DNA of 64,000 nucleotides, from the IMG/VR virus record IMGVR_UViG_3300024358_000009, positions 142,327 to 206,326 of that record; one strand, 5' to 3'. The notes under the pieces are model-generated. The model was given only the letters and a program-made list of their open reading frames with translations, was not told the DNA's origin and ran no database searches. The translations under genes and the position numbers were made by a program. Each line of letters begins with the position of its first letter. The stretch's first letter is position 1. The stretch is from a virus. Shown in pieces: positions 186-61,830 of this stretch.

Positions 186-187
186 TC

Positions 188-619
188 ATGTTTAAGTTTG
201 TAGAAAAGCTATTTGGTTTTGATAGTGGTCGAATTGAGTATCTTGAATCGAAATGTTTGGAACAATCGGAGCTAATTAAAAACCTTGCAGAAGGATTTAA
301 AGAACAAACATTGTTATTGCAAAAGATAAGTGAACGAAAGCAAGATATTGACTATGACAGAATTGATATAGATTACTACGATTTGGCAAACAAGATTAAT
401 TTAAAAGCCGTAGCTAGTGGAGTAGGTCTTAAATATCTAGCAGAAGAAATTGATCTTGGCGAATTAGCCAACAATATCAGCCTAGATGATTTAAGTAGTT
501 ATTTCAATGTGGATGAAGTAGCAGCTAACTTAGACTTAAATGAGGATGATTTTGTAGATACTATTGCAGAAAAAGTTTTGGAAAAACTTGTAAATAAATA
601 TAGGGCGAAAGCCGAATAA
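188..619 (+). CDS. Hypothetical protein with nonapeptide tandem repeats
   Basis: A 143-residue protein with GAAAGGA upstream of the start as ribosome site. Residues 1-62 look like a basic tip followed by a coiled coil. Residues 64-117 are six consecutive 9-residue units of the pattern xxLAxx(I/V)xL, for example YDLANKINL, KYLAEEIDL and GELANNISL. Such a regular unit suggests a small solenoid or helical stack. No enzymatic motif is visible. The stop codon lies inside the downstream promoter-like motif. Its N-terminus resembles the 72-residue coiled-coil protein at 20496-20714 (both begin MFKF). Function unknown. Confidence 0.75.
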   Translation: MFKFVEKLFGFDSGRIEYLESKCLEQSELIKNLAEGFKEQTLLLQKISERKQDIDYDRIDIDYYDLANKINLKAVASGVGLKYLAEEIDLGELANNISLDDLSSYFNVDEVAANLDLNEDDFVDTIAEKVLEKLVNKYRAKAE

Positions 620-626
620 GTATATA
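613..626 (+). promoter_or_regulatory. Promoter-like motif CGAATAAGTATATA
   Basis: The best example of the recurrent motif. It overlaps the stop of the preceding gene and sits 15 bases before the start codon at 641. The same sequence recurs before many genes in the first 31 kb. Confidence 0.65.
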
Positions 627-640
627 GAAAGGAGATGGTC

Positions 641-784
641 ATGATTAAGTTTACTCTGACAACTAAACAATTTGAACGCAGAGGCGTTATGGCAAGAGGA
701 AGCTCACGCTTTAAGGACGAAAGAAAAAATCCTAAAGGCGGTAGAAGTGGCGACAAAGTTAGATTTAAGAAGGGAGAATACTAA
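641..784 (+). CDS. Small basic protein, unknown
   Basis: A 47-residue protein behind AAAGGAG (spacing 7). It is strongly basic and glycine-rich in its second half (RFKDERKNPKGGRSGDKVRF), which would suit nucleic-acid or ribosome binding, but I recognise no family. It follows directly on the promoter-like motif at 613. Confidence 0.6.
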   Translation: MIKFTLTTKQFERRGVMARGSSRFKDERKNPKGGRSGDKVRFKKGEY

Positions 785-785
785 A

Positions 786-986
786 ATGGATGTTGATGTA
801 ACACTAAGTTTGGTTGAAATAAAACAAATTGTAGAATCTTTGAGATACGAAGTTAGGGTAAGCAATTACATGAGAAAACATCGTAGTGAATACGCAAACC
901 ATCTTATTGAACTATCCAATAGGTTGGAAAAAATAATGATCTATCATGCAAGGAAGGATGATAAAGTTAGATGCGAACAACCTTAG
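786..986 (+). CDS. Hypothetical helical protein
   Basis: A 66-residue protein. The frame stays open upstream to 672, but ATG 786 is preferred because GGGAG lies 9 bases before it and because 672-784 is occupied by the preceding gene. It is predicted helical with many charged residues. Function unknown. Confidence 0.6.
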   Translation: MDVDVTLSLVEIKQIVESLRYEVRVSNYMRKHRSEYANHLIELSNRLEKIMIYHARKDDKVRCEQP

Positions 987-1147
987 TCAAGGTTAATGTA
1001 GAGTTTATCTTGCCAGCATATCTAAGAACTAAAGAAGAAGTGGCAAGCTATATCAACACACATCTTAAGAACAACAACAATCTTAAGTATGTAATGCTTA
1101 TCGAAGGCGATGTAGAAGATTTTAACATTCAAGCAGAAAGGTTTTAA
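971..1147 (+). CDS. Hypothetical protein, 58 aa
   Basis: It starts inside the end of the previous gene (16-base overlap), a common coupling arrangement here. The sequence alternates strand and helix (VKVNVEFILPAYLRTKEE) and resembles the 55-residue protein at 9167-9334, which also opens with a valine-rich strand followed by LPA/VPD. Both may be members of one small phage family. Function unknown. Confidence 0.55.
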   Translation: MRTTLVKVNVEFILPAYLRTKEEVASYINTHLKNNNNLKYVMLIEGDVEDFNIQAERF

Positions 1148-1149
1148 CT

Positions 1150-1242
1150 ATGATTGATTTTCTTTGCTCAATGTATTTTGCTTTGGAGTTTTACCAAATG
1201 GAAGTAATCTTTAACTTGTTCGGTGATAGGATTTTGCTTTAG
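1150..1242 (+). CDS. Possible 30-aa hydrophobic peptide
   Basis: ATG lies 2 bases after the previous stop. The 30 residues are mostly hydrophobic and aromatic. The last part coincides with the first strand of a long RNA helix (1225-1235), so this may not be a gene. Confidence 0.3.
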   Translation: MIDFLCSMYFALEFYQMEVIFNLFGDRILL

Positions 1243-1538
1243 ACTTCTTAGAGGAATATTTCCTCTGCTAAAGATTTTATCAACCCGCCCAAAATCCTGT
1301 CAAGAAAAATCCGTAAGGATTTGCAAAATAGATGAACTTTTATGAAACTTGGTTTGCTACTTTCCCAAGGGGCAAAAAAAGTAGCACTTTTAATAATGTG
1401 CTGACAGTAAGCACTTTGTTTTCATTTATTGATATAAACTCTTTGGGTTCAATGACTTATGTTTATTTTTTAAATTCTTCTTGTAAGGAATACTGGTATG
1501 TTTTCCTTACAAATATAGTGGGTAGGCTTGTCCTACCC
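1225..1538 (+). ncRNA. Structured RNA block (multi-hairpin)
   Basis: About 300 bases without a convincing gene but full of strong complementary pairs. 1225-1235 pairs with 1291-1301 (11 bp, one G-U). It encloses 1237-1242 with 1268-1273 (6 bp), which encloses 1250-1256 with 1260-1266 (7 bp, loop TAT). Further hairpins are 1355-1363 with 1378-1386 (9 bp), 1481-1490 with 1503-1512 (10 bp) and 1520-1526 with 1532-1538 (7 bp). Nested perfect helices of this kind in AT-rich DNA indicate a folded RNA, a terminator array, or both. An open frame at 1332-1550 is not believed to be coding. Strand is assumed from the neighbours. Confidence 0.5.
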
Positions 1539-1617
1539 CTTCTAAATTGACCGAAATTGGATATCTTTATCTAATTGTAATTTTAAAAAATTTTTGTAAA
1601 TAATTTTTATTAGCTGA

Positions 1618-1634
1618 CGAATAAGTATATATAG
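1618..1634 (+). promoter_or_regulatory. Promoter-like motif CGAATAAGTATATATAG
   Basis: Same motif family as 613. It is followed by AGAGAGGAGTAAC but no substantial reading frame before the next copy at 1788, so the transcript may be a short RNA. Confidence 0.55.
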
Positions 1635-1770
1635 AGAGGAGTAACTATTAAAATTTGAGTTATGAGTGGGAGTTCCTGCTTTCCAAAAGGAGAGGATGAG
1701 GGGAGCCTGGAAACTAATTAGATATGTTTATCTTATTATCTATTTAAGAATTTTTTTATTTTTATATAAA
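1635..1770 (+). ncRNA. Possible short non-coding transcript
   Basis: This interval lies between two promoter-like motifs. Only a 19-codon frame (ATG 1662) is present. It contains purine-rich stretches with several GGAG or GAGG triplets and short complementary pieces, and ends in an AT-rich run. I see no protein gene here. It could be a small RNA or merely a leader. Confidence 0.25.
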
Positions 1771-1787
1771 TAAATCTGTATGGCCAA

Positions 1788-1801
1788 CGAATAAGATTAT
1801 G
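1788..1801 (+). promoter_or_regulatory. Promoter-like motif CGAATAAGATTATG
   Basis: A copy of the recurrent motif 21 bases before the start codon at 1822, with GAGGAAAGG between them. Confidence 0.55.
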
Positions 1802-1821
1802 TAAGAGGAAAGGAAAAGAAA

Positions 1822-2001
1822 ATGAAATATGAAATAACAAGAGAATTCATCGGTGGTTTATTGAATGGGTTAATCATTACCCAAACCATGAATAGTGATT
1901 GTGGTTATTATGTTGGGCAAGTTGTGAAAAATCCATATGGTAACACTTCTCCATATAAAATTTTGGAAATTAGGAAATATTCTCCAATGGTCGGCGAATA
2001 A
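1822..2001 (+). CDS. Hypothetical protein, 59 aa
   Basis: It has its own promoter-like motif and AGGAAAGGA ribosome site. The sequence is mixed strand and turn with no family recognised. The stop codon TAA 1999-2001 is embedded in the next promoter-like motif, so the C-terminal residues VGE are effectively encoded by regulatory sequence. Confidence 0.55.
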   Translation: MKYEITREFIGGLLNGLIITQTMNSDCGYYVGQVVKNPYGNTSPYKILEIRKYSPMVGE

Positions 2002-2010
2002 GTCTATATA
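1995..2010 (+). promoter_or_regulatory. Promoter-like motif CGAATAAGTCTATATA
   Basis: It overlaps the stop of the previous gene and precedes ATG 2028. The 30 bases 1973-2002 match 2305-2334 at 27 positions, so this promoter region is a duplicated unit. Confidence 0.6.
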
Positions 2011-2027
2011 GAAGAAAGGAAAGTAAA

Positions 2028-2300
2028 ATGGAAGTTAATGTAAGGGATTCAAGAAGCGTTGCAATTGGGGTCAAATATATTGGCCCAACCAATACAAGAG
2101 GTGCAAAGGTTAAAGCCTTTGTAAGATCGGCGACAAGGATGATACATAAAATTGAAATGCCTTGGGATCATGAATTCGATAATTCTGTAAATTACTGCAA
2201 TGCAGCAAAAAAATTGGTAGAAAAGATGCATTGGAGTGGAAATTTGGTCGGCGGTTGGTTAGGCGATCAATATGTGTGCGTATTCGAAAAGTGGAATTAA
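2028..2300 (+). CDS. Hypothetical protein, 90 aa
   Basis: Ribosome site AGAAAGGAAAG. An alpha/beta-looking protein with a conserved-looking hydrophobic end (GGWLGDQYVCVFEKW). No recognised family. It lies between two duplicated promoter-like units and just upstream of the DUF932 gene. Confidence 0.6.
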   Translation: MEVNVRDSRSVAIGVKYIGPTNTRGAKVKAFVRSATRMIHKIEMPWDHEFDNSVNYCNAAKKLVEKMHWSGNLVGGWLGDQYVCVFEKWN

Positions 2301-2326
2301 TTTTGGAAATATTTGCCAATGGTTGG

Positions 2327-2339
2327 CGAATAAGTATAT
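2327..2339 (+). promoter_or_regulatory. Promoter-like motif upstream of the DUF932 gene
   Basis: CGAATAAGTATAT, the second copy of the duplicated unit at 1973-2002. It is followed by a 56-base leader with a small hairpin before the DUF932 start. Confidence 0.6.
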
Positions 2340-2364
2340 GTAAGGTTGAGAGTTTTAATTTATA

Positions 2365-2377
2365 GGGCTGAAAGCCC
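2365..2377 (+). promoter_or_regulatory. Leader hairpin GGGCT-GAA-AGCCC
   Basis: A 5-bp perfect stem with a 3-base loop in the DUF932 leader, directly before the ribosome site AAGAAAGG. It could influence transcript stability or initiation. Confidence 0.4.
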
Positions 2378-2395
2378 AAGAAAGGTTTGGTCATC

Positions 2396-3532
2396 ATGTC
2401 TAATGGTAGCATCGGTATTCGTTCTGTGCGTGGTTTTTCCGGTTCGGCTTATGCTGGTGTAATCGAAAGATTCAACAATCGTAAGGATCATTATCATGAC
2501 AGTCTTTGCACTGTTGCCGGTGAATCCGCTAGGGTTCGTCCAGTTGTAGTCGATGGTAAGTTCCAGCTTCTGGATAAGAAGAACGAAAAGTTCTATACTC
2601 CAACAAAACACGCTCTTAGTCAATTCGCTCAGAAGACTAAGTGGGGTTCTTATACAATCAATAAGTTGGCAGAGTCTAAAGATGTACGCCATCACAATAT
2701 ATTGCGTGACCTTCTTGATATTTCTTTCCAAGAGTTCGGAGGAGAATATCTCTTTAGGTTCAACGATCAGGATGATACCTGTCGGGCGTTTTTGAGTGAT
2801 CGTTACGCAATCATTAATAATGGATGGGTATTGGATGAAGTCCAGAAGTTCCTACCAGCTGAATGCAAAGATGCGGTAGCTATGGATAAGTCCGGCGAAG
2901 ACTTTATCAACTTCATGGTAGTGCTACCAAGTAGCCTTAAGTCTTCCGATGATAGCGACTATCAAGGTTTGATCAAGGTTAAGAACTCTGAGATTGGCAC
3001 TCATCGCCTTGATGTTACTGCCGGTGTCTTCCGCACTATTTGTTCTAATGGTGCAATCGGTTGGGTTAAGCATAACGATGTAAGTGTAGTCCATCGTGGT
3101 AAGGTAGACTTCGAGCTTTTGGCTAATCATATTCAGTCGGCTATTAGCTCACATATTCAGGCTATGCCTACCATGATTGAAAAGCTTTTAGGTACTAAGC
3201 AAATGGGTTGGGATGGATCAATGACCCCCCTGTTTGCCTCTGTCGCTCAAACCTATAAGTTGAGCAAGAACGAAGTGGAGTCCGTTCATACGGCATGGGG
3301 TGTAGAACGCAATGAGACTCCTCAATATGCCAAGACCCTGTTCGGCGTGGTTAATAGCCTAACAAGGGGTAGTCAACGGATGGTTGAGTCTTCTTGGGAA
3401 AAGCTTAACGACATTGGTGGTGAGTTGGCCAATTACGATGAAAGTGATTGGACTGGCCTTAAAGCCAAGGCTAGGGCAATGACCTCCAAGGATGTTGAGA
3501 ATGTCTTGGGCAAGGAACTATCCTTCGCCTAA
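2396..3532 (+). CDS. DUF932 / phage-plasmid TIGR03299-like protein
   Basis: A 378-residue protein. ATG 2396 is preferred over the in-frame TTG 2387 because AAGAAAGG sits correctly before it. The middle of the protein (residues about 120-300) shows the DUF932 pattern: FRAFLSDRYAIINN-like (here CRAFLSDRYAIINN), a QGLIKVKNSEIGTHRLDV-like strand pair, RTICSNGAIG, and a helical end. DUF932 proteins are frequent on plasmids and phages and have no established biochemical activity. The gene is visibly richer in G+C and uses more CGT, GGT and GTC codons than its AT-rich neighbours, compatible with high expression or recent acquisition. A tRNA gene begins 10 bases after the stop. Confidence 0.85.
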   Translation: MSNGSIGIRSVRGFSGSAYAGVIERFNNRKDHYHDSLCTVAGESARVRPVVVDGKFQLLDKKNEKFYTPTKHALSQFAQKTKWGSYTINKLAESKDVRHHNILRDLLDISFQEFGGEYLFRFNDQDDTCRAFLSDRYAIINNGWVLDEVQKFLPAECKDAVAMDKSGEDFINFMVVLPSSLKSSDDSDYQGLIKVKNSEIGTHRLDVTAGVFRTICSNGAIGWVKHNDVSVVHRGKVDFELLANHIQSAISSHIQAMPTMIEKLLGTKQMGWDGSMTPLFASVAQTYKLSKNEVESVHTAWGVERNETPQYAKTLFGVVNSLTRGSQRMVESSWEKLNDIGGELANYDESDWTGLKAKARAMTSKDVENVLGKELSFA

Positions 3533-3542
3533 GATAACCCAA

Positions 3543-3616
3543 GGGGATGTAGACCAACAGGCAGAGTCAAAGGACTTAAAATCCTTCCAGTATGGGTTCG
3601 ACTCCCATCATCCCTA
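3543..3616 (+). tRNA. tRNA-Leu(UAA)-like, short variable loop
   Basis: Cloverleaf: acceptor GGGGATG with CATCCCT, a 3-bp D stem GAC/GTC, anticodon stem AAGGA/TCCTT with loop CTTAAAA (anticodon UAA), 5-base variable loop CCAGT, T arm ATGGG-TTCGACT-CCCAT, discriminator A, and no encoded CCA. Anticodon and A73 say leucine (codon UUA). Bacterial leucine tRNAs normally have a long variable arm, which is missing. Nearly the same anticodon and T arms occur at 9726-9798. Confidence 0.8.
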
Positions 3617-3619
3617 ATC

Positions 3620-3719
3620 CCCGCCTTACCTTTCGGGCGGGTTCCCCCATCCAGCTTGTTTCGTTTCCTTTCAGGCTGGATGCCGTCTAGGGGTGGCCTT
3701 GACCTCTCCATCCCTAGAC
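3620..3719 (+). ncRNA. Three strong hairpins after the tRNA
   Basis: A GC-rich island in AT-rich DNA. CCCGCC 3620-3625 pairs with GGCGGG 3636-3641. CATCCAGC 3648-3655 pairs with GCTGGATG 3675-3682. GTCTAGGGGTGG 3685-3696 pairs with 3708-3719 (12 bp, one G-U). There is no reading frame. It could be a structured RNA processed away from the tRNA, or a strong terminator and processing array. Confidence 0.5.
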
Positions 3720-3747
3720 ATTCTTATAAATATTTTTACCTCTGTAT

Positions 3748-3764
3748 CGAATAAGATTATATAG
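3748..3764 (+). promoter_or_regulatory. Promoter-like motif before a non-coding RNA
   Basis: CGAATAAGATTATATAG on the plus strand. No gene follows for 245 bases. Instead a folded RNA candidate begins immediately downstream, facing a copy of the same motif on the minus strand at 3911-3924. Confidence 0.6.
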
Positions 3765-3900
3765 AGGTAACCTGCTTGTCTTAGCAATGATAAGCGGGTC
3801 GCTGGGGTATTTTACCCATATTATCTAAGTCTATATAGGCGTACCTCATCCCCAATTCCCCTTATGGAAGGCCAAGTGGGCGGGTTTTCAGCGATTCCCT
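3764..3900 (+). ncRNA. Candidate structured small RNA
   Basis: GAGGTA 3764-3769 pairs with TACCTC 3842-3847 and closes a multi-branch domain. Inside are CCTGCTT 3771-3777 with AAGCGGG 3792-3798 (one G-U) and GGGTA 3805-3809 with TACCC 3813-3817. A shorter hairpin region follows (AGCG and CGCT around 3890-3906). There is no gene in this interval. The promoter-like motif ends exactly where the closing helix begins, as expected for a dedicated small-RNA transcript. Confidence 0.5.
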
Positions 3901-3910
3901 CACGCTCCTG

Positions 3911-3924
3911 TATATACTTATTCG
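3911..3924 (-). promoter_or_regulatory. Promoter-like motif on the minus strand
   Basis: The reverse complement reads CGAATAAGTATATA, identical to the 613-626 motif. It points leftward, towards the plus-strand motif at 3748, so the two would converge across the 3764-3900 RNA candidate and could produce an antisense transcript. Confidence 0.5.
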
Positions 3925-3979
3925 TTATAGAAGCGGAAATATTTTTTTAATTTTATTTAAAATATTTTTGGTTGGTGAG

Positions 3980-3995
3980 CGAATAAGACTATATA
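3980..3995 (+). promoter_or_regulatory. Promoter-like motif CGAATAAGACTATATA
   Basis: Precedes ATG 4009 with AAAGGAGAAAG between them. Confidence 0.6.
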
Positions 3996-4008
3996 AAGGA
4001 GAAAGCAA

Positions 4009-4353
4009 ATGAAGACATATCCAAAAGAGAAAGTTATAGGCCAATTCAAGGTAAAAGCCGTGGATGGATGCATAGTTAAGCCTGAGAAATGGCCTTTTGG
4101 AAGGCTTTTGATGCCATCTAGCTGGGAACCGGCAGGGCATTACCTACAAAGAGGGTGGGGAGAACATGAAGGTAGCATAGCAGTTAATGTATATATAACA
4201 GGTAGAACCATAAAGTATAACTTTAAACATGGTCACCATATAGCTATCCTTTTAGAATTTGTCGGGGATTGTGAACCAAGTACCTACACTTACGGAATCC
4301 TAGAAGTAAGATTAAACAACGGAAGCATGGAGAGAATTGATGTAAGTCCTTGA
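4009..4353 (+). CDS. Hypothetical protein, 114 aa
   Basis: It has its own promoter-like motif and an AAAGGAG ribosome site. The sequence is rich in strands and aromatic residues (KPEKWPFGRLLMPSSWEP). No family recognised. About 140 bases of AT-rich sequence without a gene follow. Confidence 0.6.
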   Translation: MKTYPKEKVIGQFKVKAVDGCIVKPEKWPFGRLLMPSSWEPAGHYLQRGWGEHEGSIAVNVYITGRTIKYNFKHGHHIAILLEFVGDCEPSTYTYGILEVRLNNGSMERIDVSP

Positions 4354-4497
4354 GATATAAGGGTTTAAAAAATTTTAGAATTTTTATATTATGTGCGACC
4401 CAATTATATTGGAATATGCCCATAATACCCCCTTAAACCCTAGTCCTCTCTCCTCTGTATGGTATGTACTTACATATACCTTATATATAAAGGAGTT

Positions 4498-4611
4498 ATG
4501 TCAAATGCTTATATTAAGAGGAGTGTTAAAAAGTGGAGAAAAGTGGTGAAAAAGCCCAAAGAAAACCCCTCAAATAATACATCGAACAAAGTAAATAATT
4601 CACCCTCATAA
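4498..4611 (+). CDS. Small basic peptide, 37 aa
   Basis: AAAGGAG lies upstream of the ATG but only 2 bases away, a short spacing. The first 22 residues are strongly basic (KKWRKVVKKPK), followed by an Asn/Ser-rich tail. The stop abuts the next promoter-like motif. Possibly a host-takeover peptide, but no function can be inferred. Confidence 0.4.
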   Translation: MSNAYIKRSVKKWRKVVKKPKENPSNNTSNKVNNSPS

Positions 4612-4612
4612 G

Positions 4613-4626
4613 CGAATAAGTATATA
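4613..4626 (+). promoter_or_regulatory. Promoter-like motif CGAATAAGTATATA
   Basis: An exact copy of the 613 motif, 11 bases before ATG 4638. Confidence 0.6.
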
Positions 4627-4637
4627 AGGAGATAGAT

Positions 4638-4832
4638 ATGAAGGATGATTTAAAGCATAGATGTGAAGACCTATATATAGTCGAAGGGGCATCTGCTGTT
4701 TTTGACTATTGCCAGTCTATTGACCATAAAGACTATGGGGATTGTGACCAATGCCAGACTTATGTTCCTATATATAAAGATTGTTGTCTTCTTTGCGGAA
4801 CAGAATTAAAAAGAGTAAACAAAACTGTATAG
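4638..4832 (+). CDS. Small zinc-ribbon protein
   Basis: A 64-residue protein. CDQCQTY and CCLLCGTE supply two CxxC knuckles about 15 residues apart, a classical zinc ribbon. Such stand-alone ribbons are common in phages and may bind nucleic acid or RNA polymerase. Specific role unknown. Confidence 0.65.
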   Translation: MKDDLKHRCEDLYIVEGASAVFDYCQSIDHKDYGDCDQCQTYVPIYKDCCLLCGTELKRVNKTV

Positions 4833-4836
4833 ATAA

Positions 4837-4850
4837 CGAATAAGTATATA
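4837..4850 (+). promoter_or_regulatory. Promoter-like motif CGAATAAGTATATA
   Basis: A third exact copy of the core, followed by a 28-base leader with AAGGAG before ATG 4879. Confidence 0.6.
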
Positions 4851-4878
4851 AGAGAAGTTATACATAAGGAGATTAGAC

Positions 4879-5205
4879 ATGGCTTTTACTTGGAGTGCTT
4901 CAGAGTGTGATGAGAACAATATTAAAAATGTTCATAATACAGATCAGGATAGAATAGCTTGGGCTTGTTTAGATATTGGCCTGAGTGGTATTACCCTTAA
5001 GAACTATAAAGAGTTCTACAGAAGAATGAGGCTTAGGGGCGAACTGTTCAATATCTATAAGGAGTTGACGCTAAATCACATATTTAACTGTATAGGTTTG
5101 GTCACATCTGCTGCTGATTTAAGCAAGTCTGATTTTCACAAGAAGACTATAGAGCTATTTAACTATCAGGTGGAAAGAGAAATAGCTTGTGGCCGTATCC
5201 CATAG
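4879..5205 (+). CDS. Hypothetical helical protein, 108 aa
   Basis: Behind the AAGGAGATTAGAC ribosome site. Mostly helical, with no membrane segment or metal motif. I do not recognise it. Confidence 0.6.
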   Translation: MAFTWSASECDENNIKNVHNTDQDRIAWACLDIGLSGITLKNYKEFYRRMRLRGELFNIYKELTLNHIFNCIGLVTSAADLSKSDFHKKTIELFNYQVEREIACGRIP

Positions 5206-5251
5206 TGTTTTTGAATTGATATAACTTGTTATTTGATAAGGAGTTATGGAA

Positions 5252-5461
5252 ATGGTTACAAACAACACCAATACACATAGATACTTTGCCGAAGTCTTCT
5301 TCCGTTCTAAGAAGGGAAACCCCTGTGCATATCATCTGTATATGGATGGTAAAGATGAGGAGGAAGTATATGGGAATATAGTAGGGAAGGTAAAGAGACT
5401 TAAGTATTTTGACAGAGTAGATAGAGTGGACATAGTAAAAATGCAACCCCTTGATAAATAA
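5252..5461 (+). CDS. Hypothetical protein, 69 aa
   Basis: ATG 5252 is preferred to ATG 5246 because AAGGAG (5238-5243) is 8 bases away rather than 2. A beta-strand with a following helix (FAEVFFRSKKGNPCAYHLYM, then acidic helix) resembles the proteins at 5475 and 46758, which have the same strand-turn-strand-helix order. Possibly one small phage family. Confidence 0.55.
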   Translation: MVTNNTNTHRYFAEVFFRSKKGNPCAYHLYMDGKDEEEVYGNIVGKVKRLKYFDRVDRVDIVKMQPLDK

Positions 5462-5474
5462 GGACTTATATCAA

Positions 5475-5693
5475 ATGAATAATGCACAATTCGACAATGA
5501 TATTCCCCCAATGATCTTTGAATTTAGGTTCACTTCCTACAACAAACAAGGTCAAGCTTATGAATCCAATAGGATGGTCAAGGCTTGTGGTATAGATCAT
5601 GCAGTAGAGAAATTTAACGAGGAATTTACAGATTGGGGAGAAGAAGTACCAAAGTGGGATTTAATGAACATTATGGCTATTGAAAGTAAATAA
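5475..5693 (+). CDS. Hypothetical protein, 72 aa
   Basis: ATG 5475 is chosen because an in-frame ATG at 5451 lies within the preceding gene and AAGG precedes 5475. The sequence IFEFRFTSYNKQGQAYESNR matches the layout of its upstream neighbour, suggesting tandem paralogues. Confidence 0.55.
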   Translation: MNNAQFDNDIPPMIFEFRFTSYNKQGQAYESNRMVKACGIDHAVEKFNEEFTDWGEEVPKWDLMNIMAIESK

Positions 5694-5706
5694 ATAGCTG
5701 TTAGGG

Positions 5707-5722
5707 CGAATATGTAAATATA
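5707..5722 (+). promoter_or_regulatory. Promoter-like motif, variant CGAATATGTAAATATA
   Basis: Same position relative to a gene start as the other copies, with the second A of AATAA replaced. AAGGAGG follows before ATG 5754. Confidence 0.5.
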
Positions 5723-5753
5723 AGGATGTAGCAAACATAAGGAGGGTCAAACA

Positions 5754-6026
5754 ATGGATGATTTCAAATATTACATTGGTGAAATTCTAGAGATTAATTG
5801 TGGTTTTGAATACGAAACAAAGTACATATTTAAAATATATGAAGATGAATCTACAGATGAACATACAGATAGAGTAGCAATGAATTGGAGGGGCGGTAGC
5901 AAGCATGATTGGGATGTAAATGAGGGCTGTTATAGATGTAGTCATACATTTATCTTTGATTCTGGATGTAAGGAAATAAGCAAAGAAGAATTCGATGTAC
6001 TATCTGAACATCTTGCCATTGTATAG
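5754..6026 (+). CDS. Hypothetical acidic protein, 90 aa
   Basis: Strong AAGGAGG ribosome site. An acidic strand-rich protein with two cysteines in CYRCSH and one further Cys. There may be a metal site, but the spacing is incomplete. Function unknown. Confidence 0.6.
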   Translation: MDDFKYYIGEILEINCGFEYETKYIFKIYEDESTDEHTDRVAMNWRGGSKHDWDVNEGCYRCSHTFIFDSGCKEISKEEFDVLSEHLAIV

Positions 6027-6037
6027 AAAGGCAAATC

Positions 6038-6211
6038 ATGGATAAGTCTAAAAAAGAACTAATACATACTGTAATTAAACAGATAGTCGATGATACAAAA
6101 CATAACTATTATGAGGGTATAACAGCATTACTTAACCATATAGATACATACAAGCTTATAGCTTTTTTACCAGAAGAAATGCATGAGAAATGGAGGGGCG
6201 ATGACTTTTAA
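6038..6211 (+). CDS. Tandem paralogue 1 of 3, 57 aa
   Basis: ATG 6038 behind AAAGGCAAATC. The C-terminal half LLNHIDTYKLIAFLPEEM is closely similar to the next two genes (DRMDIYELVALLPKEQ and DKLDIFDLLGILPKEH). All three are short helical proteins ending in a charged EKW or KKF segment. They are tandem duplicates of unknown function. Confidence 0.6.
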   Translation: MDKSKKELIHTVIKQIVDDTKHNYYEGITALLNHIDTYKLIAFLPEEMHEKWRGDDF

Positions 6212-6380
6212 AATTTTTAGAGAAGAACTTGTACACGAAGTATTCGACATGGTTTTAAACCATATAGATAATGATGACTATTCAGTCATATGGAAGATAT
6301 TAGATCGTATGGACATATATGAGCTAGTGGCTTTATTGCCTAAAGAACAGCGTGAGAAGTGGGATAGTTCTATTGTATAA
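6201..6380 (+). CDS. Tandem paralogue 2 of 3, 59 aa
   Basis: Starts 11 bases inside the previous gene at ATG 6201 behind GGAGGGG. The in-frame ATG 6183 is possible but has no ribosome site. Shares the motif IxxxLLPKEQREKW with its neighbours. Confidence 0.6.
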   Translation: MTFKIFREELVHEVFDMVLNHIDNDDYSVIWKILDRMDIYELVALLPKEQREKWDSSIV

Positions 6381-6391
6381 AGGAGTAAACA

Positions 6392-6589
6392 ATGTCTTTG
6401 AATTTAAGACAACAAGTGACATACGACATATGGAACAAAGTATTTTCAAATGTAGGTAATGAACACTACCAAACCATATGCAACATACTGGATAAACTAG
6501 ATATCTTTGACCTGTTAGGCATCTTGCCCAAAGAACATCGTAAGAAGTTTGAAGGTTATGTTATTAATTCAGATGTAATGGAGAAATAA
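6392..6589 (+). CDS. Tandem paralogue 3 of 3, 65 aa
   Basis: AAAGGAG upstream. NEHYQTICNILDKLDIFDLL aligns with NDDYSVIWKILDRMDIYELV of paralogue 2. The following gene begins one base after the stop. Confidence 0.6.
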   Translation: MSLNLRQQVTYDIWNKVFSNVGNEHYQTICNILDKLDIFDLLGILPKEHRKKFEGYVINSDVMEK

Positions 6590-6590
6590 C

Positions 6591-6842
6591 ATGGAAAGAC
6601 AAGAAAAAATCAACATTTTGATGGCCCATGACATTATGCAAATTAGAGAAGATATAGAAAATGGAGATTATGAGCTTGTTTGTTCTATTCTACAGGGAGA
6701 AGGATGGGAGCAATACAATAAGCTTACAGACTACCAAATAGATGGTGAACTTGAGGACAGATTTGTTTATGTCAATTTAAATGACAAGATTATTGATTTG
6801 GCTAATAGATTAAACGGCAAGCCTATCAAGTTAGAAACATAA
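6591..6842 (+). CDS. Hypothetical protein, 83 aa
   Basis: It starts directly after paralogue 3. Its N-terminal part (IREDIENGDYELVCSILQ) has a faint resemblance to the tandem family, but the second half differs. The stop falls on the first base of a terminator-like hairpin. Confidence 0.55.
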   Translation: MERQEKINILMAHDIMQIREDIENGDYELVCSILQGEGWEQYNKLTDYQIDGELEDRFVYVNLNDKIIDLANRLNGKPIKLET

Positions 6843-6874
6843 TACCGCCACTTATTAAAATATGGAGGTATTTT
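6841..6874 (+). terminator. Hairpin between genes, possible terminator
   Basis: AATACCGCCA 6841-6850 pairs with TGGAGGTATT 6863-6872 (10 bp with one G-A mismatch), followed by TTTT-like bases. It directly precedes the next promoter-like motif, an arrangement suited to insulating two transcription units. Confidence 0.45.
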
Positions 6875-6876
6875 GA

Positions 6877-6892
6877 CGAATATATAAATATA
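6877..6892 (+). promoter_or_regulatory. Promoter-like motif, variant CGAATATATAAATATA
   Basis: Follows the hairpin at 6841-6874 and precedes ATG 6908 with AAGGAGG in between. Confidence 0.5.
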
Positions 6893-6907
6893 AGAAGGAG
6901 GACAGAC

Positions 6908-7084
6908 ATGAAGTTAGATATTAAAAATATGTGCGTAGTATCTGGAAAAAACAAATATCAAATTTCTTTTGATGATATAAACATCGGCGATCAAGTATAC
7001 AACCCATTATCAGATGTTCTAATTCATATAGATGAAGATGATGACATTGAATATGTAAATAATAATTATTTTAAAATCTGTTAA
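6908..7084 (+). CDS. Hypothetical acidic protein, 58 aa
   Basis: AGAAGGAGG ribosome site and own promoter-like motif. Strand-rich with a DEDDD cluster near the C-terminus. No family recognised. Confidence 0.55.
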   Translation: MKLDIKNMCVVSGKNKYQISFDDINIGDQVYNPLSDVLIHIDEDDDIEYVNNNYFKIC

Positions 7085-7101
7085 TATTTTTTAGTAAACT
7101 G

Positions 7102-7116
7102 CGAATAAATATATAG
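7102..7116 (+). promoter_or_regulatory. Promoter-like motif CGAATAAATATATAG
   Basis: Precedes ATG 7132 with GGAAAGGGG in between. Variant with A in place of G after AATAA. Confidence 0.6.
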
Positions 7117-7131
7117 GAAAGGGGATTAGCA

Positions 7132-56043: not shown

Positions 56044-57957
56044 ATGTCAAATTGGATTCCGTTGCATGTTCACTCGCAATATTCATTGCTTGATGGACTT
56101 CCTTCTGCTGAAAGAATAGCAGATAGGATATCAGAACTTGGATTAAAAGGTTGTGCATTAACAGATCATGGATCTTTATCTGGTTCTATTTCATTTTATA
56201 AAAAGTTAAAATCCAAATCTATTGATCCAATACTTGGTTGTGAATTTTATATATGTGAAAATGAACCTACAATAAAGAATGAAGATAATAAAAAACTAAG
56301 TCATTTATGTGTTCTTGCAAAACAAGATATTGGATGGAAGAACTTAGTAAAAGCTAGTTCTATTTCTAGTTCTCCAGAAAACTTTTATAGAAAACCAAGA
56401 CTTGACCTTAAAACTCTTGCGTCTATTTCAAATGGTTCCTTTATTGTTTTTTCTGGTCACCCAGGTTCTGACTTGGGAAATTGTTTATTTACAAACTTAA
56501 CAGAAGCATATAGAGCAGAAACATTTGAACACGCCAAGTCATTAATTGATCCTAATTGGGAAAAGAAAGCTACTGATCTAGCATATAAATACGCAGACTT
56601 ATTTGGAAAAGAAAACTTTTACTTAGAAATACAGTTAATAGATTCTGAAAACATACCAGCGACTAAAATAATAGCTAAAGCTTTAAGACATATAGCAAAA
56701 AAGCACGGTTTCAAAACCGTTGCTACACCAGATGCTCATTATGCAAGAAAAGAAGATGCTGTTGACCAAAGAGTTTTGTTAGCTTGTTCGATGAAAAAGA
56801 CATTAAATGATATTAGAAATCATATTCAAAACGATGAAGACTTTGGTTTTTCTGGTTTTTTTAAATCAAATAATTATCATATACCGTCTTTTGAAGAAAT
56901 TTCTAAATTAAACTCTAATGAAGAGATAGAAAATACATTTGAAATATTTAACAGGTGCAAAGATTATAGTATTTTGAAATCTCCTATGTTGCCAAAAATA
57001 ACTGGAGATAGTTCATCGTCATCAGAAATAAAAAGACTCTGTAGAGAAGGTTGGAAAAAAAGATTTTCTTTTAAAAAAGAAGACCCAAAATTTAATCAAT
57101 ATGGAGATAGAGTCACTAAAGAATTAGAAGTTATAACTTCTGCTGGCTTAGAAGACTATTTCCTAATTGTTTATGATTATTGCAATTGGGCGAGAGAACA
57201 GGGGTGGCTTATTGGCAAAGGTCGTGGATCTGGCGCTGGATGTATGGTTAGTTATTTATTGGGAATTACTGAAATAAATCCAATTGAAAACGGATTATTG
57301 TTTGAAAGATTTTATAATTCTGGTCGTAATGCTCCAGGAAGAATTAGTTTGCCAGATATTGATTGTGATTTCCCAATATCAAAAAGAGAAGAGATTATTA
57401 ACTATATTAAAAACAAATATGGTAATGATAAAGTTTCTCAAATATCTGTTTTTACAAGAATGCAAGGCCGAGGTGCTTTAAAAGATGTTTTGCGTATTCA
57501 CGCTGCTTGTAGCTTTGAAGAAAGCAATCTAATAACAAAACATATTCCAGATGAAGCTGAAATAACCGAAGAATTACAAGAAATGAGAGATGAAGGACAA
57601 GAACCTTCTATAATTAGATGGGCCTTAGAAAATTGCCAAAAAGATTTAGATCCATATTGTAAACTAAAAGATGACGGAACATTAGAAGGTCAATATGCAA
57701 AATACTTTGCCCAAGCAATAAGGATGGAAGGAACTAAAAGATCACAAAGCAAACATGCTGCTGGAATAGTAATTGCCTCTGAGAATTTACAAAATATATG
57801 CCCTATGATTTATGATAAAACATCTCATGAAAATATAGCTGGATTAGAAATGTCTGATCTTGAATCTATTGGGCTTGTTAAATTTGATATTCTTGGGGTT
57901 GCAGTTTTGGATAAAATGATGGGCGTTCAAAAACTTCTTGCTGGAGAAAGTTTATGA
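56044..57957 (+). CDS. dnaE: DNA polymerase III alpha, fragment 1 (PHP and palm)
   Basis: A 637-residue protein. PHP domain: HVHSQYSLLDG, ALTDHGSLSG, HLCVLAK, VATPDAHYARKED keep the metal ligands. Palm: GKGRGSGAGCMVSYLLGI, then LPDIDCDFPISKREEI with the two catalytic Asp (E. coli D401/D403), and GLVKFDILGVAVLDKM with the third (E. coli D555). The frame stops just after this, about 20 residues into the region that in E. coli continues to the fingers. The rest is encoded from 58880. There is no intein sequence at this break, so the fragments must associate non-covalently. TGTCAAATTGG start at 56044 is preceded by AGAAAG. Confidence 0.9.
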   Translation: MSNWIPLHVHSQYSLLDGLPSAERIADRISELGLKGCALTDHGSLSGSISFYKKLKSKSIDPILGCEFYICENEPTIKNEDNKKLSHLCVLAKQDIGWKNLVKASSISSSPENFYRKPRLDLKTLASISNGSFIVFSGHPGSDLGNCLFTNLTEAYRAETFEHAKSLIDPNWEKKATDLAYKYADLFGKENFYLEIQLIDSENIPATKIIAKALRHIAKKHGFKTVATPDAHYARKEDAVDQRVLLACSMKKTLNDIRNHIQNDEDFGFSGFFKSNNYHIPSFEEISKLNSNEEIENTFEIFNRCKDYSILKSPMLPKITGDSSSSSEIKRLCREGWKKRFSFKKEDPKFNQYGDRVTKELEVITSAGLEDYFLIVYDYCNWAREQGWLIGKGRGSGAGCMVSYLLGITEINPIENGLLFERFYNSGRNAPGRISLPDIDCDFPISKREEIINYIKNKYGNDKVSQISVFTRMQGRGALKDVLRIHAACSFEESNLITKHIPDEAEITEELQEMRDEGQEPSIIRWALENCQKDLDPYCKLKDDGTLEGQYAKYFAQAIRMEGTKRSQSKHAAGIVIASENLQNICPMIYDKTSHENIAGLEMSDLESIGLVKFDILGVAVLDKMMGVQKLLAGESL

Positions 57958-58199
57958 AACGAAAAGGCGATCTACAAGATGAACTTGTTTCTTTGCATGA
58001 AAAAATTAAAACAAAAGATGTTGTTATAAAAGAAACATTGATGTTAATGAAAGCTTTGGTTTTTAAATTAGGACGAAAAGTTAATCTTAAATCTGAATTT
58101 TTAGAAGCTGCAAAAAGCAATGAGTTTTATGTAGATTTAAAATATGATGAAGAAGGCACATTGAAACTTGAAATTAAAAAAACCTTAGATCTAGAATAG
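57954..58199 (+). CDS. Small protein inserted between polymerase fragments
   Basis: An 81-residue protein overlapping the polymerase stop by 4 bases. Charged helical (DELVSLHEKIKTKDVVIKET). It sits between polymerase halves and could help assemble them, but no evidence besides position supports this. Confidence 0.5.
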   Translation: MKRKGDLQDELVSLHEKIKTKDVVIKETLMLMKALVFKLGRKVNLKSEFLEAAKSNEFYVDLKYDEEGTLKLEIKKTLDLE

Positions 58200-58206
58200 G
58201 AAGAAA

Positions 58207-58872
58207 ATGAATAATTCAACTATAGTTGTTTTTGATTTTGAAACTGGTAGTGTAAACCCAGAAACTTGTGAAGTTATACAAGTTGCAGCGATGGCTTTGC
58301 ATCCAAGAAGTTTAACTGAGCTTGGTCAATATAGCAGCTTGATTAAACCAAGGGATTTTTCAAAATTGGAAAAAGAAGCTCTTGAAATAAACAAGAAAAG
58401 CATTGAAGAATTAGAAAAGGCTCCAGATCTTTCTATTGTTTGGAAATCTTTTACATCGTTTATTAAAAAATATAATCCAAAACCAGGAAACACTTTCTTT
58501 GCTCCAATAGCAGCTGGAAAAAACATTAGGCATTTTGACTTAATTATTATTAATCGTTTAGCAAAAGAATTTGGCGATTGTGATAAAAACGGAAAACAAA
58601 ACTTATTTAATAAAAGAAGCGTTTTTGATTTAGATGATTTTATTTTTCAATGGTTTGATAATTCTAATGAACTCCGTGATCATAAAATGGATACTTTAAG
58701 AGAATTTTTCGGTCTTTCTACAGCAAATGCTCACGATGCATTAGTAGATGTTAAACAAACAGCTTTACTATTGAAAAGTTTTATTCAACTACATAGAAAA
58801 GTAGCTACGAGAGTTAACTTTAAAAACTCTTTAAATGAAAACTCTGGTACTGCAAAGGGCTTTATATCTTGA
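58207..58872 (+). CDS. dnaQ: DEDDh 3'-5' exonuclease (DnaQ-like)
   Basis: A 221-residue protein. ExoI VVFDFETGS, ExoII GKNIRHFDLIII and ExoIII ANAHDALVDVKQT contain the four acidic residues and the His of DEDDh exonucleases. It is probably the proofreading subunit, encoded between the two fragments of the polymerase it serves. GGAAGA precedes the start. Confidence 0.85.
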   Translation: MNNSTIVVFDFETGSVNPETCEVIQVAAMALHPRSLTELGQYSSLIKPRDFSKLEKEALEINKKSIEELEKAPDLSIVWKSFTSFIKKYNPKPGNTFFAPIAAGKNIRHFDLIIINRLAKEFGDCDKNGKQNLFNKRSVFDLDDFIFQWFDNSNELRDHKMDTLREFFGLSTANAHDALVDVKQTALLLKSFIQLHRKVATRVNFKNSLNENSGTAKGFIS

Positions 58873-58879
58873 GGTAATA

Positions 58880-59782
58880 ATGGAAGATTTTTATAAATTT
58901 GATTGTGGTTGTAAGTGGCCAATTTTAGAACCATCTAAAAATGGAAAAATACCAAAGCTTAAAATAAATTTACACAACTTACCATATTGTGATTTAGCTT
59001 GGAAAATTTTTTCAAATGGTGATACCAAGGGCATTTTTCAATTGGAATCTCATCTTGGTAAACAATGGTCAAAGAAATTAAAACCCAAAAATATGGAGCA
59101 TTTATCTGCTCTTGGCGCACTTTTAAGGCCGGGTTGTCTTCGTGCATTAGACGAAGATGGAATTTCTATGACAGAACATTATTGCAAAAGAGTTAATGGC
59201 TTAGAAAAAGTTCCTAGTTATCATGAATCCGTTGATGAAATATTAAAACCAACTTATGGCGCTTTAGTTTTTCAAGAACAAGCTATGCAAATAGCACAAG
59301 CTGTTGCTGGATTTAACTTGCAAGAAGCTGATGTTTTGAGAAAAGCTATTGGTAAAAAAAATACCCAAGAAATGGCTAACTGCAAAAAGATGTTTATTGA
59401 CGGTGCTAAAAAAGCAAAGATTATTTCTGACGAACAAGCAGAAGAGTTATTTGGTTGGATACAAGCAAGTCAAAGATATTCATTTAATAAATGTTTGTCT
59501 CCAGATTCTGTAGTAGAAACAAAAGAAGGCTTTAAAACACTTAAAGAATTAAATATTAATGATTATGTTTTAGCTCCATCTATCAAATATAAAAAAAATA
59601 TTTTTATTAAAGTAAAAGATAAAATAAATAATGGAAAACAAGAAGTTTATGAAATAACAACATCAAGTGGCAAAAAGTTAAAATGCACATTAAATCACAA
59701 AATATTATGTTCTGATGGTAAAAAAAGAACGCTTTATGATATTTTAGAAAAAAACTATAGTATTATGTGTGACCTAGAATAA
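58880..59782 (+). CDS. dnaE: DNA polymerase III alpha, fragment 2 with N-intein
   Basis: A 300-residue protein. ATG 58880 behind GAGGTAATA. Residues 1-204 continue DnaE (ASNGDTKGIFQLES-like: NGDTKGIFQLESHLGKQWSK; then GALLRPGCLRALDEDG; AGFNLQEADVLRKAIGKK; SQRYSFNK). At residue 205 the sequence becomes an intein N-half: CLSPDSVVETKEGFKTLKEL, with strand pair and TLNHKILCSDGKKRTLYDIL (block B, TxNH). It ends at residue 300 without endonuclease. Cys1 and the block B His are intact. The insertion lies between FNK and SHS of the polymerase, 3 residues after the site used by cyanobacterial DnaE split inteins. Confidence 0.9.
   Translation: MEDFYKFDCGCKWPILEPSKNGKIPKLKINLHNLPYCDLAWKIFSNGDTKGIFQLESHLGKQWSKKLKPKNMEHLSALGALLRPGCLRALDEDGISMTEHYCKRVNGLEKVPSYHESVDEILKPTYGALVFQEQAMQIAQAVAGFNLQEADVLRKAIGKKNTQEMANCKKMFIDGAKKAKIISDEQAEELFGWIQASQRYSFNKCLSPDSVVETKEGFKTLKELNINDYVLAPSIKYKKNIFIKVKDKINNGKQEVYEITTSSGKKLKCTLNHKILCSDGKKRTLYDILEKNYSIMCDLE
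59492..59782 (+). other. Split intein, N-terminal half
   Basis: Residues 205-300 of the fragment 2 protein. Cys1 at 59492-59494. It has the features of a class 1 intein N-part of about 96 residues, the usual length for split inteins. The half-intein ends with its own stop, so it must pair with the C-half encoded at 60703-60816. Confidence 0.85.
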
Positions 59783-59809
59783 TCGGTGTAATAAGTCATA
59801 GGTGATACT

Positions 59810-60739
59810 ATGAAAATAGAAAAGAATTTTTGGAATAAATGTTTTCTATGTAATAAAAACTTACATGAAATTAAAAAATTTTATGGAGGCTCTAATGTTT
59901 ATTTTTCTAAAGCCATGGCTCAACATATAGTTTCTCATAAAATCTCTTTAGAAGACTATTTTGAAAAAATAGTTAAAATAATAAGACCTATTTGTAAATG
60001 CGGAGAATGCAATAAAAAAACAAAAATAATTTTAAGAAATAAAAATAAAAACGGTTTTTTCTGGAAAGAATATGCATGTGGTAGATACGAAGGATCAAAA
60101 AAATGGTCTAAAGATGCAAAAATTTCTAGAATTGGTAAAAACAATCCAATGTTTGGCAAAAAACCTTGGAACTTAGGGATGAATAAGAAAAATTCAGAAT
60201 ATGGTAAAAAGATGTCTTTGTATAGGATTGGTAAAAAAACATCAAAAGAATCTAAAAACAAACAATCAATATCTGCTAAAAAAAGATTGATTCATGGTCA
60301 TACAGGAATTAAACATTCAGAGTTTTCAAAAAAATTAATGTCTATAGCTACTTTAAACAGAATTAAAAAAGGAGCTTTTAAACATACAAAAACCAAGCCT
60401 CATTTATTAATGAAAAGTATTTTACAAAAATTAAAATTAAATTTTGAAGAAGAAAAGATTATAGAATGTTGGATTTTTGATTTTTGGTTAAAAGATTATA
60501 ATTTATTTATTGAAGTAGACGGAGATTATTTTCATGTTAATCCAAAGATTTATCCAAATGGGCCAAAAACGAATACTCAAAAGATTAATTTTTATAGAGA
60601 CAAAGTAAAAAATAAGTTTTGTCTTGATAATAAACTAAAACTTATTAGATTTTGGGAAAGCGATATTTTAAATAACGAAGGCATTATAATAAAGGAAATA
60701 CAATGCAGCCTGAATCAATCGTGTCAATTAAAAAAATAG
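59810..60739 (+). CDS. EDxHD-type homing endonuclease between intein halves
   Basis: A 309-residue protein. An N-terminal zinc-like finger (CFLCNKNL, CKCGECNKK) is followed by NUMOD3-type repeats (IGKNNPMFGKKPWNLGMNKK). The C-terminal Vsr-like nuclease FIEVDGDYFHVNPKIY, RDKVKNKFCLDNKLKLIRFW has the E, D, H and D residues. This matches the family described with fractured genes in environmental phage data. It lies between the two split-intein halves, as expected for an element that spreads the interrupted gene. The C-half frame starts within its last 37 bases. Confidence 0.85.
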   Translation: MKIEKNFWNKCFLCNKNLHEIKKFYGGSNVYFSKAMAQHIVSHKISLEDYFEKIVKIIRPICKCGECNKKTKIILRNKNKNGFFWKEYACGRYEGSKKWSKDAKISRIGKNNPMFGKKPWNLGMNKKNSEYGKKMSLYRIGKKTSKESKNKQSISAKKRLIHGHTGIKHSEFSKKLMSIATLNRIKKGAFKHTKTKPHLLMKSILQKLKLNFEEEKIIECWIFDFWLKDYNLFIEVDGDYFHVNPKIYPNGPKTNTQKINFYRDKVKNKFCLDNKLKLIRFWESDILNNEGIIIKEIQCSLNQSCQLKK

Positions 60740-60816
60740 GAATTATTGAAACATTAGATATTGAAGTTGATAATGAAGAACATATCTTTTATGCGAATGG
60801 AATTGCGGTATCAAAC
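60703..60816 (+). other. Split intein, C-terminal half
   Basis: 38 residues ending in Asn with Ser+1 (bases 60817-60819) as the C-extein nucleophile. Length equals the typical 35-40-residue IntC of cyanobacterial and phage split inteins. The pair should splice in trans to join residues 1-204 of fragment 2 to the 337-residue C-extein. Confidence 0.85.
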
Positions 60817-61830
60817 AGTCACAGTTCCGCCTATGGCTTTACTGGATATGATACAGCTTATTTAAAAAGTCATTTCCCAGTACAATTTTTTACGAGTTGG
60901 CTTTTTTACGCAAAAGATAAAGCTGATAGCTCTCAAGAAGTTGCCGATCTAATAGACAATGCAAAGCTTTATAATATAAATGTATATCCTCCAGATATCA
61001 GAATGTTAAAGTCAAACTTTTATACTGATGGGGAATCTATTTGGTTTGGCTTGTCCGATATAAAAGGAATAGGTACTTCACAAATAAGTAAACTTATTTC
61101 TTGCTTCAATTCTCAATCTGAAAAAATAGATAGTTGGATTAAATTTTTAATTTATTGTTCAGACTCTATTTCTTCTACATCAGTAGCAAAAGTTATTGCT
61201 GTCGGCGGTTTTGATTGGTGTGGCGAGTATAGACAAAAACTTATATCTGAATTAGAAACTTGGAATCAATTAACAGAAAAAGAAAAAGAATGGATTAAAG
61301 AAAATTGCAAAGAAACAAAAAATCTTAAAGAATGCATTTTAGCTTTATCAAAACCTAAAAAAGAAGGTGGTGGATGCAGTAATAAAAATCGTATTTCATT
61401 AACATCTGATTTATATAATATGTTAGAAAATCCTCCAACTGAATATAATGATCCAATATCTTGGAAAGTTTGGTCAGAAAGAGAAAATCTTGGCATAGCA
61501 CTATCATGTTCATTAACGGATGGAATAGAAAATCAATCTGCTAATACAACATGCAAAGAATTTTATTTTGGTAAAACTGGATTTATGGTATTGTCAGTTG
61601 AAATATTAGATGTTAAAGAAATAGTTACAAAAAATGGAAAAGATCCTGGTAGAAGAATGGCTAGATTAACTGTATCCGATTCTTCTTGTAAAATAGACAA
61701 TGCTATAATATTTCCAGATGCTTACGAAATGCATCTAGATAAAGTATTTGTAGGAAATACTGTTTTGATTCGTGTTGATCGTGATCGCAAAACAGATGCT
61801 ATGGTTTTAAAGGACATTAACCAACTTTAA
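60703..61830 (+). CDS. dnaE: DNA polymerase III alpha, fragment 3 with C-intein
   Basis: A 375-residue protein. Residues 1-38 are an intein C-half (IGIIETLDIEVDNEEHIFYA then NGIAVSN: blocks F and G with terminal Asn, His in block F and +1 Ser). From residue 39 the polymerase continues with SHSSAYGFTGYDTAYLKSHF (fingers), then helix-hairpin-helix and an OB-fold (FMVLSVEILDVKEIV, RMARLTVSDSSCKIDNAIIF). Extein lengths add up: 637 + 204 + 337 residues, close to full-length DnaE (about 1160). The C-terminal tau-binding tail is not apparent. ATG 60703 behind AAGGAAATACA. Confidence 0.9.
   Translation: MQPESIVSIKKIGIIETLDIEVDNEEHIFYANGIAVSNSHSSAYGFTGYDTAYLKSHFPVQFFTSWLFYAKDKADSSQEVADLIDNAKLYNINVYPPDIRMLKSNFYTDGESIWFGLSDIKGIGTSQISKLISCFNSQSEKIDSWIKFLIYCSDSISSTSVAKVIAVGGFDWCGEYRQKLISELETWNQLTEKEKEWIKENCKETKNLKECILALSKPKKEGGGCSNKNRISLTSDLYNMLENPPTEYNDPISWKVWSERENLGIALSCSLTDGIENQSANTTCKEFYFGKTGFMVLSVEILDVKEIVTKNGKDPGRRMARLTVSDSSCKIDNAIIFPDAYEMHLDKVFVGNTVLIRVDRDRKTDAMVLKDINQL

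Follow-up and report, generated by a model that had tools for sequence, protein, structure and literature searches.

It is still an open question where split inteins come from and how they last, and the best-known example, in the DnaE polymerase of cyanobacteria, has lost its intermediates. The same question is raised by a dnaE gene lying in three pieces at positions 56044–61830 of a 64,000-nucleotide stretch of viral DNA (IMG/VR record IMGVR_UViG_3300024358_000009, record positions 142,327–206,326; hereafter ‘the window’, numbered from its first nucleotide). Which of these pieces can be rejoined, and how did the gene come to be broken? We favour, at a probability of roughly 0.9, a mobile fractured-gene cassette inserted at the junction FNK|S, in which the intein halves would splice in trans, the endonuclease between them would home the whole cassette, and the host polymerase would work as two chains. 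The arrangement is of a known type. The variety at this single site is what makes split-intein evolution testable: because contiguous, endonuclease-split, swapped, decayed, endonuclease-free, and empty alleles all occur there, the steps can be ordered and tested.

Anatomy of the cassette and its empty site

The part of the locus that concerns the intein is laid out as follows (aa, amino acids; ORF, open reading frame).

58880–59782, + strand: DnaE fragment 2, whole (extein plus N-intein)
58880–59491, + strand: fragment 2 extein, fingers domain, 204 aa, ending ...RYSFNK (DNA_pol3_finger, E = 1.1e-42)
59492–60816, no strand assigned: inserted cassette (N-intein, endonuclease, C-intein), 1,325 bp, missing from close relatives
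59492–59782, + strand: N-intein, 96 aa plus stop, Cys1, block B CTLNH (Hint, E = 1.3e-7)
59800–59805, + strand: putative Shine-Dalgarno-like AGGTGA, 5' of the endonuclease start
59810–60739, + strand: free-standing EDxHD (Vsr-like) homing endonuclease gene, 309 aa (DUF559, E = 8e-5; homologue alignment; structure model)
60691–60696, + strand: putative Shine-Dalgarno-like AAAGGA within the endonuclease gene, 5' of the C-intein start
60703–61830, + strand: DnaE fragment 3, whole (C-intein plus extein)
60703–60816, + strand: C-intein, 38 aa, ending ...AVSN; the endonuclease reading frame ends 37 nt into it
60817–61830, + strand: fragment 3 extein, 337 aa, starting SHSSAYG (Ser+1), with HhH and OB-like domains (HHH_6, E = 3e-7)

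The ORF finder starts fragment 2 at 58835, but relatives start at the equivalent of the Met at 58880, which we therefore take as the true start. With that start, three elements of a preliminary description made from the sequence hold: an N-intein of 96 aa that ends fragment 2 and begins with Cys at residue 205, a 38-aa C-half that opens fragment 3 and places Asn before Ser+1, and a separate EDxHD-type endonuclease gene between the two. That description had also made its reading depend on the splicing residues, and those of a class 1 intein (Cys1, CTLNH, the C-terminal Ser-Asn, and Ser+1) are all intact in the window. Together with fragment 1, the exteins sum to 637 + 204 + 337 = 1,178 aa. The G+C content is 22.7% in the N-half and 24.3% in the endonuclease gene, against 30–33% in the flanking exteins. 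Since the fractured sequence recurs identically in three more contigs from other samples (L011–L013), it is not a local sequencing error.

In five contigs from close relatives, fragments 2 and 3 form a single ORF of 541 aa. These are copy A (L005, a second tract of the source record, discussed below) and L014–L017; in all five the junction falls exactly at FNK|SHS, with YSFNKSHSSAY unbroken, and extein protein identity to the window is 91% for copy A and 80% for L017. Because the flanks are one ORF in these contigs, the cassette is a precise insertion and the fractured layout is not due to chance. A co-conversion scar beside the insertion was sought and rejected, as identity between the window and copy A shows no dip at the junction.

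Diversity and kinship of inteins at FNK|S

Viral contigs were scanned from alignments of the endonuclease and the N-intein, the best 80 of 104 relatives being kept in the last scan. Both junctions could be resolved in 67 loci holding 52 distinct inteins, 43 with separate halves and nine contiguous, distributed as follows.

Split, with an EDxHD-type gene: 27 (two of them, L145 and L155, match EDxHD-related profiles weakly)
Split, with a LAGLIDADG gene: 5
Split, with a GIY-YIG gene on the strand opposite to dnaE: 2 (L124, L141)
N-half extended in frame by an HNH domain, separate C-half: 2 (L128, L142)
Split, with decayed endonuclease remnants: 3
Split, without endonuclease: 4
Contiguous mini-inteins: 8
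Contiguous with an insert: 1

The layout of N-half, endonuclease, and C-half, to which the preliminary description applied the term ‘fractured gene’, is found again, always at this residue, in dozens of other phage contigs. All 52 inteins end in Ser-Asn and are followed by Ser+1; residue 1 is Cys in 45 and Ser in seven, block B reads [T/S]xxH throughout, and the C-half measures 38 aa in 33 of the 43 split loci. Ser1 variants include L111, L113, L115, L118, and L119, the split ones with LAGLIDADG genes and the contiguous L119 without endonuclease. In the two HNH fusions (L128:6031–6971 and L142:6031–6962), NUMOD4 and HNH run in frame with the N-intein up to a stop that precedes the separate C-intein, possibly an intermediate between the contiguous and the fully fractured state. 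Among the bacterial genome contigs scanned, one locus only was found, in a metagenome-assembled genome of Verrucomicrobiales (L174).

The endonuclease of the window has a NUMOD3-like stretch in mid-protein (a weak Pfam match) and a C-terminal nuclease domain, in which D224, E235, H242, R263-D264, and W282-E283 are invariant across an alignment of eight homologues. A model built from these homologues is of moderate confidence over its full length (predicted local distance difference test, pLDDT, 77; predicted template modelling score, pTM, 0.41), with the nuclease domain well predicted. It matches the catalytic domain of I-Bth0305I (3R3P; template modelling, TM, score 0.87 by target) and, lower down, Vsr, which places the protein in the EDxHD family; a Vsr-like fold and conserved acidic and His residues are both present. 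I-Bth0305I belongs to a group I intron, whereas the window endonuclease, 21% identical to it, sits in a split intein. An RNA-ligase-like nucleotidyltransferase gene is fractured too (L081:2053–3981): the break comes directly behind its EKVDG motif, the N-half begins CLDENT..., the C-half ends LVHN before S, and an endonuclease relative lies between them.

In 2009, Dassa and colleagues reportedly described fractured genes of gp41, NrdA, NrdJ, and IMPDH types, in which a split intein is accompanied by an EDxHD endonuclease encoded as a free-standing gene. The window shares with them a DNA-synthesis gene broken at the canonical endonuclease position, a free-standing EDxHD/Vsr-like gene in the gap, and a phage origin, but differs in its host gene (DnaE), its junction (FNK|S), and a second break that is free of inteins; moreover, in its relatives the same split point is also found with LAGLIDADG, minus-strand GIY-YIG, fused HNH, decayed, or no endonucleases, or with a contiguous intein. 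A literature search returned no description of split inteins in phage DnaE at FNK|S, the loci of 2009 lying outside that search and possibly including DnaE.

Among the phage records inspected in the annotated collection, none has a close match to the N-half or the endonuclease of the window, and the inteins at FNK|S are all contiguous. These mini-inteins, which interrupt the DnaE proteins of Rhodococcus phages Weasels2 and Grayson (L053/L055) and gut phage MT835601 (L052), have the same junction, Ser+1, and Hint type as the window intein but are contiguous and lack an endonuclease; in the two annotated records they are not named as inteins. Gordonia phage Wojtek (gp72, L057) has a DnaE intein near the same place, in which there is an apparent HNH-like insert; its junction, YSF|C, differs slightly.

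How these inteins relate to the cyanobacterial DnaE intein is less easily settled. The preliminary description placed the insertion three residues downstream of the cyanobacterial site and thought a distinct lineage possible. The offset is in fact four, since YSFNK|SHS in the window compares with Y|CFNKSHS in cyanobacteria, and the element is not the same allele as the intein at Y|CFN. Distinctness stands as regards the site, but the nearest solved intein is Npu DnaE, both by an N-half profile (built from eight homologues and searched against solved inteins: Npu DnaE, E = 3e-13; gp41-1, 7e-9; Ssp DnaE, 1.5e-7) and by the fold of the contiguous homologue L126, whose model (pLDDT 96) has a Hint fold closest to Npu DnaE 4KL5 (TM 0.91, 28% identity), with inteins as its top matches in the PDB. 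The window intein also differs from those of Npu and Ssp in having Ser instead of Cys at +1, and its gene pieces are adjacent with an endonuclease between, whereas cyanobacterial dnaE pieces lie far apart with none. Likenesses are the DnaE host, the same protein region, the C-terminal Ser-Asn, and a similar division of the Hint domain (96 + 38 aa, compared with 102 + 36 aa in Npu DnaE; PMC2664965). Taken by itself, the C-half profile ranks gp41-1 first. An intein phylogeny, in which the Npu DnaE and gp41-1 sequences were entered by hand, puts Npu DnaE outside the family without firm support and so leaves kinship unsettled. The profile and fold rankings are suggestive of a descent of the cyanobacterial intein from the FNK|S family, which, given the tree and the C-half result, we do not claim. 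In practical terms, the family is a source of about 40 apparently uncharacterised, Npu DnaE-like split inteins with Ser+1 and a short, uniform C-half (mostly 38 aa), of practical use in protein ligation, for which Npu DnaE is widely employed.

Probable movement of the cassette and loss of its endonuclease

In the mechanism that we propose, the two intein halves, carried by fragments 2 and 3, would associate and splice in trans by the ordinary class 1 route (acyl shift at Cys1, transfer to Ser+1, and cyclisation of Asn). The fingers and the C-terminal part of DnaE would thereby become a single chain of 541 aa, as they are in intein-free relatives. When a relative with an intein-less dnaE infects the same cell, the endonuclease is predicted to cut that gene near FNK|SHS, and repair would then copy the whole cassette into it.

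Synonymous divergence (dS), compared between extein and cassette parts in eight pairs of loci, bears on this movement. For L150/L065, dS is 2.9 in the extein, near saturation, but 0.57 in the N-half, 0.51 in the endonuclease, and 0.38 in the C-half; for L100/L101 the extein value is 2.4 and the others are 0.63, 0.31, and 0.56, respectively. In both pairs, therefore, the common ancestor of the three cassette parts is younger than that of the flanks, which suggests homing of the cassette as a whole. The window intein is closer to several others, among them those of L098 (55% identical, extein 41%) and L109 (47%, extein 28%), than the exteins are, a difference that fits recent acquisition, with the reservation that the rates of evolution of exteins and inteins may differ.

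The endonuclease gene overlaps the C-intein gene by 4–67 nt in 30 of 31 loci. Its 3' end probably carries the ribosome binding site of the C-intein and, because it runs into the C-intein start, could not be cleanly removed. This overlap is also what might be expected if trans-splicing is real but the endonuclease has ceased to promote homing and persists as a passenger because the C-half needs it for translation; the short 3' piece retained in endonuclease-free loci agrees with that explanation. However, full-length endonucleases are under purifying selection, with a ratio of nonsynonymous to synonymous divergence (dN/dS) of 0.05–0.15 in the pairs where it is computable, and the invariant nuclease motif, the cassettes younger than their flanks in two pairs, and the empty sites of close relatives also speak for continued homing. 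We consider the passenger explanation unlikely, if still worth keeping in mind.

A second alternative is decay of the gene, in which insertion of the endonuclease has left an intein that is broken and dead; there would be no splicing, and the polymerase would be non-functional or redundant. The three gene pieces and the low G+C of the insert would suit decay, but the splicing residues are kept in all 52 distinct inteins, dN/dS is about 0.06–0.22 in the N-half and 0.03–0.35 in the C-half (where computable), the extein is still 91% identical to that of an intein-free relative, and the nearby replisome genes of the window (DnaB-like helicase and primase-like) are intact; on the strength of the purifying selection and the conserved residues, we rejected this reading as very improbable. 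That the gap is an RNA intron (e.g. group I) carrying the endonuclease, with the intein halves joined in the RNA and then splicing in cis, is scarcely credible and was likewise rejected: although EDxHD endonucleases occur among those of group I introns (PMC3943268), Rfam matches across 57500–61200 include no intron family, the N-half ends in a stop while the C-half, of mostly constant length, has its own ATG and Shine-Dalgarno-like site, and some gaps with the same stop/start layout are only 13–27 nt long, too short for an intron.

Several points nevertheless weigh against a homing, trans-splicing cassette. A clearly younger cassette is seen in only two of the eight pairs, dS in the other six being either saturated or much the same throughout. 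The intein-bearing phage occurs together with its nearest empty-site relative, so that homing would have to be incomplete, recent, or resisted, and the phage is known from metagenomes only. The penultimate residue is Ser in all 52 distinct inteins, where His is commoner in inteins generally, and in some inteins this makes Asn cyclisation slower; it does not exclude class 1 membership, because Npu DnaE has the same residue and splices fast. Finally, we know of no splicing or cleavage assay for any member of the FNK|S family.

Loss of the endonuclease has left traces. In L109, L110, and L174, the halves are separated by spacers of only 21–27 nt, which match, in register, the 3' ends of endonuclease genes at other loci (23 of 27 nt in L110, against the tail of L112, 20 of 27 in L109, and 17 of 21 in L174), a level reached by none of 500 shuffles for any of the three. 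Compared in the endonuclease frame with the tail of L112, which reads DGSFKEDLKCKL, the L110 spacer reads DGTFKEDLKCKL. These matches indicate that the three loci once had an endonuclease gene, of which the 3' remnant survives because it also serves as the leader of the C-half. By the same shuffle test, the 13-nt spacer of L132 shows no endonuclease tail, and the last 45 nt in L114 match one weakly (40 of 500 shuffles).

On a tree of 56 inteins (131 columns), at least seven changes between the split and contiguous states are required. Placing five contiguous members in one clade is rejected by the approximately unbiased (AU) test (p = 4e-6), the group having been picked after the tree was seen. 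Trees constrained to split-only clades without L119, L126, or L144/L153/L161 are not rejected (AU p = 0.43, 0.51, and 0.42), so the direction of change is left open; re-fusion as a proven direction was discarded on these values, and we claim interconversion alone. A hint of re-fusion comes from the contiguous L119, in which an in-frame Met is retained at the very place where free C-halves start, exactly 38 codons ahead of the junction. It is conceivable, though we hold it at somewhat less than even odds, that the split state is one stage of a cycle that can run both ways, always with the same split point. In such a cycle, an endonuclease gene would lodge in a contiguous intein and break it, the cassette would home, endonuclease families would replace one another or be lost, leaving a 3' piece before the C-half, and deletion would re-fuse the halves.

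A second break in the polymerase and the source record

Upstream of the cassette, the gene is broken once more, between palm and fingers.

56044–57957, + strand: DnaE fragment 1, PHP domain and palm, 637 aa (Pfam PHP, E = 4e-35; DNA_pol3_alpha, E = 3e-73)
57954–58199, + strand: small ORF, 81 aa, overlapping the fragment 1 stop; homologues about 58% identical in L002 and L014–L017
58207–58872, + strand: DnaQ-like 3'-5' exonuclease gene between DnaE fragments 1 and 2 (RNase_T, E = 1.4e-15), kept in relatives

Fragment 1, a separate polypeptide with the catalytic Asp motifs LPDIDCDF and VKFDILG, carries no intein half, and no intein-like sequence was found at either end of the break between fragments 1 and 2. 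The order fragment 1, small ORF, exonuclease, fragment 2 is the same in intein-free relatives, and in 19 of the 20 loci examined in the extein clade of the window, fragment 1 is a separate ORF and the exonuclease gene precedes fragment 2; the exception is L103 (= L061), in which the front part is unbroken. On these grounds, we rejected the idea that this break is a second intein or the relic of one. Fragments 2 and 3 are therefore the only ones that splicing can rejoin, and a polymerase of two chains is to be expected: the spliced 541-aa chain would have to pair non-covalently with fragment 1, so that the replicative polymerase is apparently two polypeptides with a proofreading gene between their coding pieces. 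The earlier wording, ‘polymerase in three pieces’, is not right in so far as it implies that the whole enzyme would be restored by splicing.

The intein-free palm–fingers break with a DnaQ-like exonuclease gene is seen throughout a clade of phages, at 56044–58880 of the window and in L098–L119, L123, L148, and L152. In L098, L101, L105, and L108, the exonuclease gene is set apart from fragment 1 or from fragment 2 by an extra 1–3 kb of sequence.

The source record (206,326 bp) holds copy A as a second tract about 80% identical. Record positions 1–127 (G000), the start of copy A, recur identically, and no further, at window positions 6992–7118, at which point the sequence goes over into the other tract; this joint is also present in record G001, which has the same last base. 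An exact overlap of 127 bases is what a k-mer assembler leaves at the ends of a circular genome. Because two 80%-identical genomes meet over exactly 127 identical bases that also open the record, we regard it as a k-mer mis-join and thus a probable assembly chimera, in which a closed, circular phage A (~149.3 kb) has been wrongly joined to part of a phage B. A single 206-kb phage with two dnaE copies was rejected as less likely, given this joint. If the record is a chimera, window positions 1–7118 would belong to phage A and 7119–64000 to phage B, which would then hold the fractured dnaE; contigs L012 and L013 carry the phage B version.

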